Below the pieces are notes generated by a model. It did no database searches. It saw only the letters and a list, made by a program, of their open reading frames with translations, and had not been told where the DNA came from. The translations under genes were made by a program, and so were the position numbers. Positions 6,053 to 23,236 of a DNA stretch of 64,000 bases are shown piece by piece (positions within the stretch are counted from its first letter, which is position 1; each line of letters begins with the position of its first letter). The stretch is from Roseovarius sp. (GTDB lineage Bacteria > Pseudomonadota > Alphaproteobacteria > Rhodobacterales > Rhodobacteraceae), in the NCBI RefSeq assembly GCF_030373445.1, contig NZ_JAUCYU010000009.1, forward strand, positions 1 to 64,000, in the 5' to 3' direction.

Positions 6053-6514
6053 CTATTCGGAATGCGAGCCGTGGTCGTCGCCGCTGCGTTCCTCGACCTT
6101 GAAGACGATGTCGATTTCACCGGCCTTTTCGAAGATCAGGGTGACGGGGATCTCGTCGCCGACCTCGAACGGGTCGCTGAGCCCCATGAACATCACGTGA
6201 TAGCCGCCCGGCGCGAGTTCGACGATGTCGTCGGCGGGGATCGCAAGCTTCTCGATATGGCGCATGCGGGCGACGCCGTCTTCCTCGTAGGACTCGTGCA
6301 CCTCGACCTTCGGGAAGTCGCCGCGCACGCCGATCAAGGCGTCGTCGGTTTCGCCGTCATTGGCGATGGTGACGTAGCCGCCGCCGGTCTTTGCCGTGGC
6401 GGCGGTGGCGAAGACCCTGGGGTGAATGATCTGAAGGTCGCCCAGCATGTAGTCATGTGCCGCGGCAAGGCTCGGCAGGGCGAGGGCGAGGGTGGTTGCG
6501 ATTAGGGTTTTCAT
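6053..6514 (-). CDS. Periplasmic copper chaperone PCu(A)C family protein
   Basis: Signal peptide; 'YMLGDLQIIHPRVFAT...GGYVTIANDGETDD...GGYHVMFMGLSDPFEVGDEIPVTLIFE'. Confidence 0.9.
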   Translation of the reverse strand: MKTLIATTLALALPSLAAAHDYMLGDLQIIHPRVFATAATAKTGGGYVTIANDGETDDALIGVRGDFPKVEVHESYEEDGVARMRHIEKLAIPADDIVELAPGGYHVMFMGLSDPFEVGDEIPVTLIFEKAGEIDIVFKVEERSGDDHGSHSE

Positions 6515-6580
6515 GTGTCTCTCCAAGTCTTGAGGTGACCGCAAGGTGCGGCCGGGTGTCTGAGGTTGGTACGGCCCGTG

Positions 6581-6937
6581 TCAGACGAGCGGCGGCGCGC
6601 GAGGGAGAGAGGGGAGATAGGCCGGCACCACGGCGCGCAATGGCTGCGGCACGGGTGCCGGGGCAGATGCAAGCGCGTCTTCGGGTGCGGCAATCGGAAT
6701 GATGTCTTCGGAGGTATCGGCGGCGTGGACCAGCGCGCAGGTGTCGGGGCTGTCCGAGACCTCGACCGGGTTGCCGTCAGCGTCGAAGCGCAGGGTGCGC
6801 AGCCCGTCACCGGTGCAGATGACCATGACACGGTCAAAGGTCAGGCCGAGCGCCGCCGCAACCCCCGCGCCCTGTGGCACGAGGAGGCCGAGCGCCACGA
6901 TCAGCGCGACGAGGGTTCTGGCAATCCAGCCGGTCAT
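6581..6937 (-). CDS. Hypothetical small exported/membrane protein next to the PCu(A)C gene
   Basis: N-terminal hydrophobic segment; head-to-tail with the copper chaperone gene. Confidence 0.6.
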   Translation of the reverse strand: MTGWIARTLVALIVALGLLVPQGAGVAAALGLTFDRVMVICTGDGLRTLRFDADGNPVEVSDSPDTCALVHAADTSEDIIPIAAPEDALASAPAPVPQPLRAVVPAYLPSLPRAPPLV

Positions 6938-6994
6938 GTCGGAAGGACTAATCCGCTTGCCGGCGGCGGAGCAAGCGCATTCCGCCGCCTGCGG

Positions 6995-7999
6995 CTATCT
7001 GAGGCGGAGGCGAGGGGCATCGCCCAGCGGCACCGGCCCGAGACGGACCTTGCCACCCTTGAAGTTCAGCGGAATGTCGAGCGTCTTGGGGTTGCCCGCC
7101 ATCTGCGAGATCAGGCCCAGCCCGTCTTCCAGCGTGCCGGCGATGGCATCGGGGAGCGCGCCGGAGTCCACGGCCATCTTGAGGATGTCGCGCCAGTTGC
7201 GGGCCTTGACCGTGACGTCGCCGACCGGGAAGCCCTGGTCATCGACCGTCACCTCGCCCGCTGCCTGAAGTTCCAGCCGGCCCCAGCGGGCCTTGGCGAG
7301 GCGGATGTCGATGCGGCGCGGCTGGGGGCGGGCTTCTTCGATGGCGGAGCGGTTCCACGGCTTGTCGAACTCGACGGTGACGTCGGCCTCGAAGGCGTCG
7401 AAACGTTCCGGCAGCTTGCCCGCCGGGTCGAGCCGCACGCGCCATTCCAGCGCCGGCGAAAGGCCCTCGGCGGCCAGCCCCAGCCGGTAGGTCGAGGGGT
7501 GGGCGGCCACCCGCTCGGCGGCGACACGCACCGCCTTTGCCCGGGTCGGCTGATCGGCGGAGCGGGGGGTCACGACCAGTTCCTCGGCCGTCAGGGTAGT
7601 GCGTTCCAGCGGCAGGGACAGGTCGGCGCCGACCACGACGCTGGCGCGCATGTCGCTGCTTTCCACGTCAAACTTTTCCTGCGGTGTGGCGACCATCTGC
7701 TGATCCGGCCAGACGGCAATGACGTGGTTGGGCTTGTAGCTGAGCGCGAGGATCTGGAACATCGGCGCTTCCCACGCGAGCCCGGTTTCGGGGTCGGCGA
7801 GGGTGATGTCGGTAAAGGTGGTGTCGAAACGGTTGGGGAAGCCTTTCGTTTCCAGCGTGCCGGTTTCGGCTGCCCACCCCTCGGCGCGCCGGGCCTCGAG
7901 CCAGGCCGAGAACCCCTCGGTTACGCCGGTCTTGCCGATATACCAGTACCCCGACCATGCCGCCGCCGCGATCAGGATCAGGGTCAACAAAATACGCAT
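6995..7999 (-). CDS. DUF2125 domain-containing protein
   Basis: MRILLTLILIAAAAWSGYWYIG N-terminal TM anchor; sequence pattern recalled from DUF2125 proteins. Confidence 0.7.
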   Translation of the reverse strand: MRILLTLILIAAAAWSGYWYIGKTGVTEGFSAWLEARRAEGWAAETGTLETKGFPNRFDTTFTDITLADPETGLAWEAPMFQILALSYKPNHVIAVWPDQQMVATPQEKFDVESSDMRASVVVGADLSLPLERTTLTAEELVVTPRSADQPTRAKAVRVAAERVAAHPSTYRLGLAAEGLSPALEWRVRLDPAGKLPERFDAFEADVTVEFDKPWNRSAIEEARPQPRRIDIRLAKARWGRLELQAAGEVTVDDQGFPVGDVTVKARNWRDILKMAVDSGALPDAIAGTLEDGLGLISQMAGNPKTLDIPLNFKGGKVRLGPVPLGDAPRLRLR

Positions 8000-8609: not shown

Positions 8610-8633
8610 TTGACACTATATAAATCGTAGTGT
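8610..8633 (+). promoter_or_regulatory. Candidate operator dyad ACACTA-N9-TAGTGT overlapping a TTGACA box upstream of the motor operon
   Basis: TTGACA 8610-8615; perfect 6-bp dyad arms 8613-8618 and 8628-8633; start codon 8669. Confidence 0.45.
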
Positions 8634-8668: not shown

Positions 8669-9907
8669 ATGGACCAGCCGGACCGTGAGGTCGAGCCGCA
8701 GTTTTCACAGCCAGTCCGTCAGATCACGCTGATGCTGATCGTGCTCGGGCTGACCGGGTTCGGGGCCTTCGTGGCCCTGCCCCGGGTTTTGCCGGTATTC
8801 CAGTCGAATCTATATCTCAACGGGTTCATCGTTTTCGTGTTCTTCATCGGCGTGGTGGCCTGTTTCTGGCAGGTGTTCCAGCTGATCACCTCGGTCCGGT
8901 GGATCGAGGAATACGCGCAGGATCACCAGGCCAGCGATACCTCGGGCGCGCCGCGGCTGCTGGCGCCGCTGGCGACGCTGATGCGGCAGCGCCGGGGCAA
9001 GCGGATGCAGATCGCCTCGACCTCCGCACGGTCGATCCTCGACTCGGTCGCACAGCGGATCGACGAGGCGCGGGAGATCACCCGCTATATCGTCAACATG
9101 CTGATTTTCCTTGGCCTTCTGGGCACGTTCTATGGGCTTGCCACGACGGTGCCGGCCGTGGTCGACACCATCCGCAGCCTTGCCCCGCAGGAGGGCGAGG
9201 GCGGGGTCGAGGTGTTCAACCGGCTGATGACCGGGCTCGAGGCGCAGTTGGGCGGCATGGGCGTGGCCTTCGCCTCGTCGCTGCTCGGGCTGGCGGGGTC
9301 GCTGGTGGTGGGGCTGTTGGAGCTGTTCGCGGGCCATGGGCAGAACCGGTTCTACCGCGAGCTGGAAGAGTGGATGTCGTCGATCACCCGCGTGGGCTTT
9401 GCCTCGGGCGACGGGGAAGGCGGGGGCGACCAGAGCGCGATGGCCGGCTTCCTCGAACATATGTCCGAGCAGATGGACGCCATGCAGCAGATGGTCAGCC
9501 AGTCGGATGTGAGCCGGGCGATGGTGGATGAAAAGCTGGGCGTTCTGGCGGATTCGATCGAGCGGCTGACCCACCGGATGAGCGAGGCGAATCCGGTCAA
9601 CACCGCGCTGATGCAGGTGGCGAACGGGCAGGAACGCCTGATTTCTACGCTTGAGGCGCGCAACGAGTCGCTTGGCGAGACCGGCCTCGATGCCGAAAGC
9701 CGGATGCGCCTGCGGTCGATCGACGTGCAGATGCTGCGCATCCTCGAGGAGATCAGCGCCGGGCGGCAGGAGACGATGACCGAGATCCGCACCGACCTTG
9801 CGGCGCTGACCAAGATCTTCAACCAGTTGCGCAATGCCGAGAGCGGGCGCGCCCGCGCCGCACTTCGCGTCAGGCCCGACGCCGGCAAGACGGAGCGGGA
9901 GGGCTGA
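8669..9907 (+). CDS. MotA/TolQ/ExbB-type proton channel family protein
   Basis: Predicted TM segments; TM3 'IVNMLIFLGLLGTFYGLATTVPAV' and TM4 'LGGMGVAFASSLLGLAGSLVVG' match the TolQ/ExbB/MotA family; C-terminal soluble tail of about 200 aa. Confidence 0.85.
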   Translation: MDQPDREVEPQFSQPVRQITLMLIVLGLTGFGAFVALPRVLPVFQSNLYLNGFIVFVFFIGVVACFWQVFQLITSVRWIEEYAQDHQASDTSGAPRLLAPLATLMRQRRGKRMQIASTSARSILDSVAQRIDEAREITRYIVNMLIFLGLLGTFYGLATTVPAVVDTIRSLAPQEGEGGVEVFNRLMTGLEAQLGGMGVAFASSLLGLAGSLVVGLLELFAGHGQNRFYRELEEWMSSITRVGFASGDGEGGGDQSAMAGFLEHMSEQMDAMQQMVSQSDVSRAMVDEKLGVLADSIERLTHRMSEANPVNTALMQVANGQERLISTLEARNESLGETGLDAESRMRLRSIDVQMLRILEEISAGRQETMTEIRTDLAALTKIFNQLRNAESGRARAALRVRPDAGKTEREG

Positions 9908-9910
9908 TCC

Positions 9911-12832
9911 ATGGCCCTGTCCCGCCGCACAGGACAACGCTTTCAATCCTCGATCTGGCCGGGCTTCGTGGATGCGATGACCGGCCTTCTATTGGTGCTG
10001 ATGTTCGTGCTGACGATCTTCATGGTCGTGCAGTTCGTGCTGCGCGAGACGATCAGCGGGCAGGCCAGCAAGCTTGACGAGCTCTCGGCGGAGGTGGCGG
10101 CGCTGAGCCGTGCGCTGGGGCTGGAACAGGACCGCAGCGCCACGCTGAGCGAACGGGTGGGCGAACTGACCAGCACGCTGACCGCCGCCCGCCAGCAGCA
10201 GGAGCAGCAGACCGCCCTGATCGACAGCCTGCGGCAGGAGCGCGAGGAACAGGCCGAGGCGCTGGCCGCCGCGCAGTCGCGCATCGCCAGTTTCGAGGAG
10301 CAGGTGGCGAGCCTGTTGTCGGACCGCGAAACCAACCTCGGCACCATCGCCGAGTTGGAGGACCGGCAGGAGGAATTGCTTTCGGAGCAGGAGCAACTGA
10401 ACCTTGCGTTGGCCAACATGCGCGAGGAGATCGACGCCCAGACCGAAGAGGCCCGCCTTGCCGCCGCCCGACGCGAGGCGCTTGAGGCGCTGATCGCCGA
10501 TCTGCGGCGGCGCTATACCGAGGAGCAGGCGGAGGTTGCCAGCCTGTCGGGGCAGGTCGAGACGCTCGAGGCAGAGCTGAGCGAGGAAGAGAAGCTGCGG
10601 CTGGCCGAGGCGGCTGCGGCGGAGGCGTTGCGCGAGAAGCTGGAGAATGCCGAGACCGAGCTCACCTCGATGACGCTGGCGCTGGAGGAGGAGCGGCGCC
10701 GGGCCGAGGAGACGCTGACCCTTCTGGCGGCGGCGGAGAATGCCGAGGAGGATCTGGATATCCAGCTGGCCGCCGCGCTGCTGGCGCAGGACCAGATCAG
10801 CGAGGAGTTGACCACCGCGCAGTTGGCCATCGACGAGAAGGATGCCCGGATCGCGGAGCTGGAAGAGCAGGTATCGGAGGCCGAGGGCAACGCGGTGGCG
10901 CGGGCCAGTACGCTGGGTGACCTCGAGGCGCAGTTGGCCGCCGCGCTGGCGGATGCGGAGGACAAGGGCAAGACGCTGGACGAGCTGCGGCTTGAGCTGA
11001 GCGAGGCGCAGAGCCTTGCTGAAGGCCGGGCGGAAGATAACCGGACGCTGGAGGAACGCATCGCGTCGGCCGAGATTGCGCTGGCGGCCGCTCAGGCCGA
11101 GGCCGAGACGGCGCAGGCGGAGCTGGCGCAATCGCAGGAGGCGTTGACTTCGACCCGGGGCGAGCTGGAGGAACGGCTGGCCGCGCTGGAGGCGGAGCTG
11201 GCCGGGGTGAGCGCGCTGGAAACCCGGCTGGCGGAGGCCGAGGCCGAGGCGGAGGCGCTGACGGCGGAACGCGATGACCTTGCAACGCAGCTGTCGCAGG
11301 CCGAGGCGGTGGGGCGGGCCTTGCAGGACGAGACCGTGGCGTTGAAATCGCAATTGGAGGCGTCGCAGGGCGAAGCCAGCGAAACGGAGAACCTGCGGGC
11401 AGAACTGGCGCAGGCGCAGGCTTCGGGCGAGGAACTGGAAGCGCGGCAGGTGGAGCTGGAAACGCAGCTCTCGCAGGCGCAGGCCTCGGTCGAGGCGCTG
11501 GCGCAGGAGAAGGCCGATCTGGAAACCCGGCTGGCGGCGGCACGGGAGGCGCAGTCAGAGGCGGGCACGGAAAGCGCCGAGCTGGAGGAGCGGCTGGCGC
11601 GACTGGAAAGTCGGATTGCCGCGCTGACCGAGGAGCGCGAGACGCTGACGGGCGAGGCGAAGAGCCTCGAGGAGAAGCTGGCCGAGGCGCTGGCCGCGAA
11701 GACCGCCGCCGAGAACGAGGCGGTCGAGGATGCCGACCTGATCGCCGAGTTGCAGGCGCGGCTGAACCGGACCGAGGAGGCACTGCAGAAGGTGCGCCGG
11801 CGGCTGGCCGAGGTGCTGGCGGCGAACGAGGCCGCCGAGGCCGAAGCGGTGAGTTCCGAGGACGTGCGCAAGCAGCTGGCCGCCGCGCTGGCGGCCAAGC
11901 TGGCGGCCGAGAAACAGGCCGCCGCGAGCGACGAGGAGGTCGAGGACATCCGCGATCAGCTGGCGCAGGCACTGGCCGCGAAACTGGCCGCCGAGCGCGA
12001 TGCGCAGGCCGAGATCAGCAAGGCCGAGGAGCGCCAGATCCTGCTGGAAGAGGCGCGGCGCAAGCTGGCCGAGGCCGAGGCGGCGCGCGAGAAGCAGGCG
12101 GACCTCGCGACGGAGGCGCAGAAACAGCAGGAATTGCTGAACCGGCAGGTGGCGTCGCTTCGGCAGCAGCTGGGCGAGTTGCGGGCGCTGCTGGATGACG
12201 CCAAGGCGCGCGAGGCGGCGGCGAACGTGCAGATTGAATCGCTGGGGCAGGACCTGAACGTGGCGCTGGCCCGGGCCGCCGCCGAGGAGCGGCGGCGCCG
12301 GCAGCTGGAAGAGGAGAAGGCCCGGCGGCTGGAGGAGGAGCGCAACGCCCTGCAGGCGCAGAACGAGGATCTCGAGAAGTACCGCTCGGATTTCTTCGGG
12401 CGGCTGCGCGAGGTGCTGGGCAATCAGGAAGGCGTGCGGATCGTGGGCGACCGGTTCGTGTTCTCGTCGGAGGTGCTCTTCGCGCCGGCCGAGGCCGAGC
12501 TGGAAGAGGCGGGGAAGACCGAGATTGCCAAGGTGGTGAACATCCTGCGCGGGGTGGCCGACGAGATACCGGAAGGCATCGACTGGGTTTTGCAGGTCGA
12601 CGGGCACACGGATGACATCCCGATCCGCAACAGCCGGCAATTCGAGGATAACTGGGACCTGAGCCAGGCGCGGGCGCTGTCGGTGGTGCGCTACATGATC
12701 GACGACCTCGGGATGGACCCGGAGCGGCTGTCGGCGAACGGGTTCGGGGAATATCAGCCGGTGAACACCGCGAATACCGAAGAGGCCAGGGCGCAGAACC
12801 GGCGGATCGAGCTGAAGATCACCGAAAAATAA
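9911..12832 (+). CDS. MotB-like single-TM protein with very long coiled coil and C-terminal OmpA-like peptidoglycan-binding domain
   Basis: TM with Asp 'GFVDAMTGLLLVLMFVLTIFMV'; about 775 aa Ala/Glu/Leu-rich coiled coil; OmpA-like end 'LQVDGHTDDIPI...WDLSQARALSVVRYM...LSANGFGEYQPVNTANTEEARAQNRRIELKI'. Confidence 0.9.
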   Translation: MALSRRTGQRFQSSIWPGFVDAMTGLLLVLMFVLTIFMVVQFVLRETISGQASKLDELSAEVAALSRALGLEQDRSATLSERVGELTSTLTAARQQQEQQTALIDSLRQEREEQAEALAAAQSRIASFEEQVASLLSDRETNLGTIAELEDRQEELLSEQEQLNLALANMREEIDAQTEEARLAAARREALEALIADLRRRYTEEQAEVASLSGQVETLEAELSEEEKLRLAEAAAAEALREKLENAETELTSMTLALEEERRRAEETLTLLAAAENAEEDLDIQLAAALLAQDQISEELTTAQLAIDEKDARIAELEEQVSEAEGNAVARASTLGDLEAQLAAALADAEDKGKTLDELRLELSEAQSLAEGRAEDNRTLEERIASAEIALAAAQAEAETAQAELAQSQEALTSTRGELEERLAALEAELAGVSALETRLAEAEAEAEALTAERDDLATQLSQAEAVGRALQDETVALKSQLEASQGEASETENLRAELAQAQASGEELEARQVELETQLSQAQASVEALAQEKADLETRLAAAREAQSEAGTESAELEERLARLESRIAALTEERETLTGEAKSLEEKLAEALAAKTAAENEAVEDADLIAELQARLNRTEEALQKVRRRLAEVLAANEAAEAEAVSSEDVRKQLAAALAAKLAAEKQAAASDEEVEDIRDQLAQALAAKLAAERDAQAEISKAEERQILLEEARRKLAEAEAAREKQADLATEAQKQQELLNRQVASLRQQLGELRALLDDAKAREAAANVQIESLGQDLNVALARAAAEERRRRQLEEEKARRLEEERNALQAQNEDLEKYRSDFFGRLREVLGNQEGVRIVGDRFVFSSEVLFAPAEAELEEAGKTEIAKVVNILRGVADEIPEGIDWVLQVDGHTDDIPIRNSRQFEDNWDLSQARALSVVRYMIDDLGMDPERLSANGFGEYQPVNTANTEEARAQNRRIELKITEK
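11675..12004 (+). repeat. Four degenerate copies of a 16-aa motif LAxxLAAxxAAExxA within the coiled coil
   Basis: KLAEALAAKTAAENEA (codon 589), RLAEVLAANEAAEAEA (631), QLAAALAAKLAAEKQA (655), QLAQALAAKLAAERDA (683). Confidence 0.75.
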
Positions 12833-12835
12833 GGG

Positions 12836-13807
12836 CTATTGGCCGACGGTTATGTCGGCGTGGCGGGCGGCGATGAGAGTGTCTCCGCGCCTCAGCGTGA
12901 CGTAGCCGCGATACTGGCCCGCGGGCCAGCCGCCATCCGGGCTGCGCCGGCCATAGGCGCGGAAGAGCTGGAGTTGCGGGGCGATCAGGGTGATGGTGCG
13001 GGTGAAGATTTCGCCCTCGGGGCCGGTGGCGGAAAGGGTCAGCGTGTCGTTCGGTTCGGCATGGAAGACGTGGCCATAGAGGACGAGGGCGTCGCCGGGC
13101 GTGGTCTGCGTGACGCGGGCGGCGCCGGTCTGGACATCGTCGAGCGTGGGCACGGCGGTGGAAAAGCTGGCGGTGAAAAGGCCGGTGGGCGTGTAGGCGG
13201 GGGCAGTCTTCCAGAGGCCGTTGCCGGTGCCGGCGCCGCATTGCCTGGTGTCGGGCCGGAAGGGGTCGATGATCTCGCCATCCTTCAGCACGGTCAGGTG
13301 GATATGCGGATTGTTGGTCAGCCCGCTGAGCCCGACGAGGCCGAGCGGATCGCCTGCCGCGACAGTCTGCCCCTCGCGCACGGTGAGGGAGCCGTTCTTC
13401 ATGTGGCAATAGAGGGTTTGCCAGCCGTCGCCGTGGTCGAGGCGCACGGCGTTGCCGCATTCACGGCCGCGGATGGTGTCGCGGGTTGCGTCGGTGACGG
13501 CGATATCGGCCATGCCGTCGCGCAGGGCGGCGACGCGGCCGGGGGCGGCGGCGAGGACGGCGACGCCGTTTTCCATGGCCTCGAAGGACTGCAGGGCAAT
13601 ATCGGTGCCGCGGTGGCCGTCGCGGCTTTTGAGGCCGCAGGTATAATCGTGCTGGCCGGGGCCGGGATCGGCATCGACATAATCCTCGATGAAGCAGGTC
13701 TGCCCGAGGGTGCAGTCGATGGGGAGGGAGAGCTGCGGGGGCTCCGCAAACGAAGGCGCGGCCCAGAGGGCCGCGCCAATCAGTGCCGCAATCCGCGACG
13801 GCGTCAC
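12836..13807 (-). CDS. M23-family metallopeptidase (LytM-like)
   Basis: 'GLKSRDGHRGTDIAL' and 'NPHIHLTVLKDG' zinc-ligand motifs; GTG start overlaps the clpA TAG stop. Confidence 0.88.
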   Translation of the reverse strand: MTPSRIAALIGAALWAAPSFAEPPQLSLPIDCTLGQTCFIEDYVDADPGPGQHDYTCGLKSRDGHRGTDIALQSFEAMENGVAVLAAAPGRVAALRDGMADIAVTDATRDTIRGRECGNAVRLDHGDGWQTLYCHMKNGSLTVREGQTVAAGDPLGLVGLSGLTNNPHIHLTVLKDGEIIDPFRPDTRQCGAGTGNGLWKTAPAYTPTGLFTASFSTAVPTLDDVQTGAARVTQTTPGDALVLYGHVFHAEPNDTLTLSATGPEGEIFTRTITLIAPQLQLFRAYGRRSPDGGWPAGQYRGYVTLRRGDTLIAARHADITVGQ

Positions 13808-18190: not shown

Positions 18191-18302
18191 CCCAGCCGAA
18201 TTTCGATGTTTACAGACAGGCATCGTGTCCTAACGCCCCCGGACGACGGCATCCCTATGCCGTCATTTTGCTGAACCGGGGCCAGAAATCGGAAGGGTGG
18301 AC

Positions 18303-18863
18303 GTGTCCGAACCAGCTTCGATCTCCTCCGGCATCGCCGAACGCTATGCCACCGCCATTTTCGAGATTTCGAAAGACGACAAGTCTCTGGCGAAACTTGA
18401 ATCCAACGTCACCGATCTTGCAGCCGCGCTGGACGACAGCGACGAGTTCGCCGAGCTGATCGCCAGCCCGGTCGTGCCCCGGTCGGAGCAGAAGGCGGCG
18501 GTCATGGCGATTGCCGACAAGATGGGCCTCGAGCCGGTGCTGAAGAACGGGCTGGGCCTGATGGCCGAGAAGCGCCGCCTCTTCGTGCTGCCGCAGCTGA
18601 TCGTGAAGCTGCGCGAGATGATCGCCGAGGACAAGGGCGAGGTGACCGCCGACGTGACCAGCGCCAAGGCGCTGACCAAGACCCAGTCGGAGAAACTTGC
18701 CAAGACGCTCAAGGCCACCGTGGGCAAAGACGTCAATATCAATGCGACCGTCGATGAAAGCCTCATCGGCGGTCTTATCGTCAAGGTGGGCTCGAAGATG
18801 ATCGATACCTCGATCCGCTCGCGCCTCAACTCCCTCCAGAACGCAATGAAAGAGGTCGGATAA
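18303..18863 (+). CDS. atpH: ATP synthase F1 subunit delta
   Basis: 'SGIAERYATAIFEISKD ... GLIVKVGSKMIDTSIRSRLNSLQNAMKEVG'; GTG start at 18297 or 18303. Confidence 0.95.
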   Translation: MSEPASISSGIAERYATAIFEISKDDKSLAKLESNVTDLAAALDDSDEFAELIASPVVPRSEQKAAVMAIADKMGLEPVLKNGLGLMAEKRRLFVLPQLIVKLREMIAEDKGEVTADVTSAKALTKTQSEKLAKTLKATVGKDVNINATVDESLIGGLIVKVGSKMIDTSIRSRLNSLQNAMKEVG

Positions 18864-20402
<1,539 letters not shown>

Positions 20403-20416
20403 GGGGGGACGAGGCA

Positions 20417-22739
<2,323 letters not shown>

Positions 22740-22792
22740 GCATCGCGCCGCGCCTTTCGAGGCGCGGCATCCTCTCCCAAAGGAGACAGTGA

Positions 22793-23236
22793 ATGGCTGA
22801 CACAGTCCAATTCGATCTGGTAAGCCCCGAGCGGCTTCTGGCTTCTGTCGAGGCCAGGGAAGTGCAGATTCCGGGTGCCGAGGGCGACATGACCGCGCTG
22901 CCCGATCACGCGCCGCTGATCACGACGCTGCGCCCCGGTGTCGTCACCGTGACGGGGGCCGAGGGCACGCAATCCTACGTGGTGACGGGCGGCTTCGCCG
23001 AGATCAACCCGGAAAGCATCTCGGTTCTGGCCGAGCGCGCCATCCCGCGCGAGGAGGTCACGCAGGAGCATTTCGACGAGATGATCCGCGAGGCCAACAG
23101 CCGGCTGGAAAAGGCGCAGGACGCCTACAAGAACGAGCCCGGCCCGGTCGACGAGGCCGCCAAGCTGCTGGCCGACATGGTGGCGATGGGCGACGAGATC
23201 GGCCTTGCGACCACCTCGCGCGCGGCGGCGCCGTAA
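22793..23236 (+). CDS. atpC: ATP synthase F1 subunit epsilon
   Basis: '[51 protein letters not shown]'. Confidence 0.97.

Follow-up and report, generated by a model that had tools for sequence, protein, structure and literature searches.

A channel gene and its stalked OmpA-domain partner in Roseovarius sp.: a putative wall-anchored envelope motor of Alphaproteobacteria

Background

Few ion-driven motors with a 5:2 subunit ratio are known: Mot, Ton, Tol, the gliding/type IX secretion (T9SS) motor and Zorya. Their channel (A) subunits form pentamers around dimers of a B subunit and are driven by ion flow; OmpA domains, where present, bind peptidoglycan. Here we describe an adjacent A–B gene pair in a 64,000 bp stretch of the Roseovarius sp. 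genome (RefSeq assembly GCF_030373445.1, contig NZ_JAUCYU010000009.1, positions 1–64,000, hereafter the window), in which B carries a very long coiled-coil stalk between its transmembrane (TM) helix and a C-terminal OmpA domain. The reading that we prefer, and to which we assign a probability of roughly 55%, is that the pair forms a constitutive, wall-anchored, ion-driven envelope motor of the MotA/TolQ/ExbB/ZorA kind with 5:2 stoichiometry, by analogy with the systems named above. In a 2025 survey, non-flagellar B subunits were described as lacking OmpA homology (PMC12505986). The present pair, a core feature across much of the Alphaproteobacteria, is a counter-example to that statement.

Results

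The channel and its partner

The channel gene and its features are as follows.

8669–9907, forward strand: channel (A) subunit, 412 residues; open reading frame (ORF) whose start is shared by relatives
Within 8669–9907, forward strand: four hydrophobic helices (MotA-like topology) and a cytoplasmic helical tail of about 180 residues
9125–9127, forward strand: Thr153 in the TM3 motif FLGLLGTF, candidate ion-path residue (sequence conservation)
9278–9280, forward strand: Ser204 in the TM4 motif GMGxAFxSSLxGL, candidate ion-path residue (sequence conservation)
9341–9904, forward strand: cytoplasmic helical tail of A (residues ~225–412), with the motif AESRMRLRSIDVQMLRILEE conserved in Rhodobacteraceae

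The start was placed at the ATG at 8669, which is conserved in relatives, and not at the GTG further upstream at 8630. The channel had been predicted to be of the TolQ/MotA type. This did not show in Pfam, where it scored 13.0 bits against MotA_ExbB (PF01618), under the gathering cut-off of 22.9. The assignment to the MotA/TolQ/ExbB type rests on matches to ZorA profiles, the invariant TM3 and TM4 motifs and a fold search with modest scores. The best PADLOC profile was ZorA1 (7.4e-10, a partial match of 36 bits), and ZorA (8vvn) was the top match when a class-wide channel profile was compared with PDB sequences. FLGLLGTF was found in 133 of 133 channels, and both Thr153 and Ser204 were invariant in the two channel alignments (20 class-wide rows and 34 Rhodobacteraceae rows). 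With the predicted channel structure (predicted local distance difference test, pLDDT, 73) as Foldseek query, the top 50 matches were all TolQ, ExbB or ZorA, with modest scores (best E 1.7e-3, TM-score on the query about 0.3). The cytoplasmic tail is shortened or absent in several orders other than Rhodobacterales.

The partner gene starts 3 nt after the channel gene and contains the following features.

9911–12832, forward strand: B subunit, 973 residues, with TM helix, coiled-coil stalk and OmpA domain (NF006542: 754 bits, cut-off 388)
9956–10039, forward strand: single TM helix of B (residues 16–43), near-invariant across 74 Rhodobacteraceae
9971–9973, forward strand: Asp21 in the TM helix of B (IWPGFVDAMTGLLLVLMFVLTIFMVVQFV), putative ion carrier by analogy with MotB/ZorB
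10046–12418, forward strand: predicted continuous heptad coiled coil (B residues ~46–836), about 117 nm if straight
10811–11980, forward strand: length-variable middle of the stalk (B residues ~301–690), from conservation along the partner alignment
12434–12829, forward strand: MotB-type OmpA peptidoglycan-binding domain (residues 842–973; GHTD at 898–901, LSQARA, NRRIE)

About 15 residues precede the TM helix. Pfam OmpA matched residues 856–964 (E = 2.5e-17), in fold comparison the C-terminus resembled MotB, MotS and PomB, and the best PADLOC profile was ZorB3 (3.1e-23). All correctly identified partners carry the TM Asp (121 recognised by motif and two more with WPAFVD). The pair thus combines a polar Thr/Ser ring on TM3/TM4 (T153/S204, invariant) with an Asp in the TM helix of the partner. 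The original prediction had already noted the closely spaced ORFs, the OmpA domain, the Asp-bearing helix and the long coil; all were confirmed.

The stalk is probably one continuous coiled coil

Hydrophobic residues in the B subunit of the window recur with a period of 3.50 residues and a power of 37, whereas the 99th percentile of shuffled sequences is 10.4; the coil is not due to chance. Prolines occur only at residues 17, 859, 887, 904, 937 and 950, so residues ~46–836 are proline-free. In the first 83 Rhodobacterales orthologs no proline was found in 41,677 coil residues, and in 20 further ones a single proline was found in 9,577. From residue 46 the heptad phase holds steady as far as ~460–494; beyond this it slips twice, each time by the equivalent of three residues.

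Across 177 loci, the TM Asp and the GHTD motif are 210 to 1061 residues apart. Every distinct stalk length requires at least one insertion or deletion. Of the 91 distinct spacings in an initial 119 loci, 35 were equal to 3 modulo 7 (p = 1.2e-8; this and the p-values below are optimistic, as related genomes do not give fully independent lengths). Classes 3, 0 and 6 together held 67 of the 91; the latter two differ from class 3 by a single slip of 4 or 3 residues. The bias recurred in a hold-out of 60 new loci (58 usable), with 24 of 46 distinct spacings in class 3 (p = 1.6e-9), and also when only previously unseen spacings were counted (12 of 28, p = 2.3e-4). Over the pooled 177 loci, 47 of 119 distinct spacings fell in class 3 where 17 were expected (p ~1e-11; chi-square p = 2e-14). 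A scan of moduli 3–15 gave a strong deviation at 7 and 14 only, with 3 and 6 reaching p = 0.02–0.04. The lengths of the channel's cytoplasmic tail in the same genomes, used as a control, showed no modulo-7 preference; a second control, on the linker of a third gene described below, comprised only nine lengths. The spacing in the window is 877, or 2 modulo 7, which equals class 3 plus the two 3-residue slips.

An AlphaFold2 (AF2) monomer of B (pLDDT 62) interrupts the helix near residues 209–235, 346–351, 495–502 and 646–675. Read literally, this model suggests a stalk folded back as antiparallel helical hairpins that span the periplasm: helices 352–494 and 503–645 are equally long, and a rod of 117 nm is longer than the width of any periplasm. 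However, pLDDT is near or below 50 at the breaks, the heptad phase passes unaltered across 209–235 and 346–351 and elsewhere shifts by small slips only, and spacings throughout the class keep the heptad register in a stalk that is essentially free of proline. Because the register persists through the predicted breaks, hairpins are disfavoured and we consider them quite improbable. The spacing bias, the near-absence of proline and the persisting register together indicate that the stalk is probably one continuous coiled coil, and not a flexible tether or a folded hairpin.

Recomputed from 791 residues at 0.1485 nm each, the contour length of the stalk is ~117 nm, close to the ~115 nm first estimated for a straight helix. 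It had been reasoned from that figure that the stalk must fold back, bend or lie along the wall; of these options, folding back is the one that the register speaks against. The variable middle is flanked by conserved proximal (46–300) and distal (691–836) coil. Growth of the stalk by recent tandem duplication was considered but is not supported, as the repeats found were only weak and short. From the end of the TM helix to the OmpA domain, the stalk has a median near 444 residues in Rhodobacteraceae (265–959) and of ~167 in other orders (108–435). Judged by these lengths, the giant coil does not define the system; it is a Rhodobacterales elaboration of a stalk that typically has ~170 residues elsewhere in the class.

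Distribution and gene neighbourhood

The channel was detected in 199 of 289 sampled alphaproteobacterial genomes, nearly always as a single copy, and its carriers include near-complete genomes of 0.7–1.1 Mb. One copy was present in the genome of the window, whose closest named relatives are Roseovarius, and in each of 23 genomes of the same genus. At one locus (L025, genome G022) the search reported a single in-frame TAG inside the match to the channel query. As anticipated, the two genes co-occur: the partner directly follows the channel at all 74 Rhodobacteraceae loci with enough contig and at no fewer than 37 of the 41 loci from other orders, 35 by motif and two of the six exceptions with WPAFVD. 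The channel genes at loci L043 and L051 had no recognisable adjoining partner. Outside the class, few strong relatives turned up in a sample of the whole phylum, and the other, weak matches were mostly long ZorA-like ORFs. Three loci outside the class (L192, L193 and L194) contained the full pair with short stalks, and their channels form one clade.

In the window, the pair is accompanied by ChaC, DUF2125, M23 peptidase, ClpA and glyoxalase II-like genes, with housekeeping flanks. Across Rhodobacteraceae, ChaC adjoined the pair at 65 of 65 full loci, ClpA at 58 of 72, and an M23 peptidase was detected at 40 of 72; in the other orders efp (31 of 41) and an inositol-monophosphatase-family gene (32 of 41) lie near the pair.

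The best PADLOC profiles of both subunits and the top PDB match point to an anti-phage system resembling Zorya, or to the sensor-motor half of one. The channel matches are weak and partial, though, and the channel scored 13.5 bits against NCBIfam ZorA (NF033917), for which the cut-off is 500. No match to a Zorya effector (ZorC plus ZorD, or ZorE) was found among the neighbours of the pair in the window, and the distribution of the pair is that of a core, single-copy, syntenic locus. In the channel tree the ZorA rows form a clade of their own (support 100/100) and Tol/Exb also split off; this tree does not settle the deepest branching within the family of the pair, and its MotA branch is too long for placement. 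We regard a defence role as highly unlikely. The layout recognised at the outset still stands: ZorA/ZorB-like, with the coil on the periplasmic partner and without ZorC/D-like genes nearby.

The nearest OmpA domains, those of MotB, PomB and MotS, and the four MotA-like hydrophobic helices could also suit an alternative flagellar stator. This is hardly credible. No FliF match was found in the 4.8 Mb genome of the window (scored 100% complete), which excludes a flagellar role in this host, nor in 11 of 16 tested channel-carrying genomes, and the locus has no flagellar neighbours; since the pair occurs in hosts without flagella, a stator is refuted as its general role. The genome of the window also encodes a TolQ of its own, close to Pal, as well as an ExbB, and the pair is therefore additional to these.

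At 23 of the 41 loci from other orders, a third gene lies directly upstream of the channel (for example L041, L042 and L044–L049; positions 6124–7011 at L047). Its product is proline-rich, with an apparent signal sequence and a C-terminal OmpA-like domain in which AYAS/AFAG replaces GHTD and RRLSLxRAL...R is retained. It might serve the putative motor as an outer partner. It adjoined the pair at none of 80 Rhodobacteraceae loci. In the genome of the window its profile matched two OmpA-domain places only; the one 3.5 kb from TolQ we take to be Pal, the other an unrelated OmpA protein. It was considered whether stalk length is tied to the loss of this gene; several loci outside Rhodobacteraceae lack it yet have short stalks.

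Other genes in the window were noted in passing. An extensin-like C-terminal domain protein (PF06904; 5405–6010) and the convergent M23 peptidase (12836–13807) may have cell-wall roles. Genes resembling F-type ATP synthase subunits, judged visually from the arrangement of the ORFs and from shared synteny, lie ~6 kb downstream (18297–23236), and a Hint_2 domain protein (PF13403, 1.2e-56; 1351–2418) occupies the same place across the genus.

Discussion

Proposed mechanism

By family resemblance, five channel subunits would surround two B helices, and ions would pass between B, at its Asp21, and the ring that Thr153 and Ser204 form in A, rotating the channel pentamer against the B dimer. The dimer would run on unbroken as a two-stranded coiled coil to the peptidoglycan-binding OmpA domains, so that a shaft locked in register could carry torque or tension from the membrane to the wall. 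In most Alphaproteobacteria the length of the stalk would roughly match the width of the periplasm. The middle of the stalk appears extended in Rhodobacterales, to ~40–140 nm; such a stalk would lie obliquely or along the wall and may grip peptidoglycan away from the motor. The pair would then serve envelope maintenance beside Tol-Pal, without replacing it.

The same parts could form a passive tether from inner membrane to wall, with the channel as anchor or leak and the coil as a spacer that passes no force. A five-fold variation in stalk length, perhaps intolerable for a precisely geared machine, would suit a tether, but full conservation of the Asp and the Thr/Ser ring, together with the register lock, exceeds what a tether needs, and we find it rather unlikely.

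Several points weigh against the motor that we prefer. Its 5:2 assembly, ion flow, rotation and function are predictions. Any long coiled coil favours heptad-preserving insertions and deletions, so the register lock speaks for continuity and not for movement, and the relatedness of the genomes weakens the spacing statistics. The AF2 monomer interrupts the helix at several places, about 30% of the genomes in the class have no detectable channel, and a two-stranded coil of 117 nm is likely to be torsionally soft, maybe a spring rather than a drive shaft. A bolder version of the motor, which we entertain only tentatively, is a separate, class-wide 5:2 rotary motor whose coiled-coil drive shaft (up to ~140 nm in Rhodobacterales) would turn or drag distant peptidoglycan-bound heads, with register under selection and length free. 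A register-locked, freely lengthened stalk makes an old question, if and in what way such motors pass force across the periplasm, directly testable.

Comparison with known systems

The partner is a member of NCBIfam NF006542/PRK09039, "peptidoglycan -binding protein" (sister models NF006543–NF006546), scoring 754.4 bits against the curated cut-off of 388. The pair had been proposed as undescribed. This holds for function, in so far as no functional study of the pair or of the NF006542 family was found in the open-access literature (subscription papers were outside the scope), but not for the gene family, which is catalogued under a generic name and apparently uncharacterised functionally. The model is 627 residues long, against 973 for the window B, and is given without mechanism, partner or function.

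With Zorya ZorA/ZorB (PDB 8vvn, 8qyd; PMC11890865) the pair shares the channel core, the Asp-bearing TM helix of B, an OmpA domain on B and the gene order. In Zorya, however, the long coil is on the cytoplasmic A subunit, whereas here it is on the periplasmic B, and Zorya is a defence locus with effectors, whereas the pair belongs to the core genome without effector genes. The flagellar stators MotA/MotB, PomA/PomB and MotS have the MotB-type OmpA domain, the Asp-bearing TM helix and the A–B order in common with it; MotB has a plug and a linker where the B described here has hundreds of coil residues, and the pair occurs without flagella. TolQ/TolR and ExbB/ExbD resemble the channel in predicted fold (modest Foldseek scores) and share the polar-ring motif GLxGT. 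Their B subunits have the TolR/ExbD fold, in place of which the partner has an OmpA domain; it is not of the TolR/ExbD type, and the TolQ-Pal genes of the window genome are located elsewhere.

Spacing in multiples of the heptad is a known sign of coiled coils that pass movement between domains (PMC9587094, PMC13269768). The linkers of PadC diguanylate cyclases and of Rec-controlled histidine kinases likewise favour lengths in multiples of seven (PMC9587094, PMC13269768). Those linkers are short, whereas the stalk of the pair has a length range of more than 800 residues and connects a putative motor with the wall.

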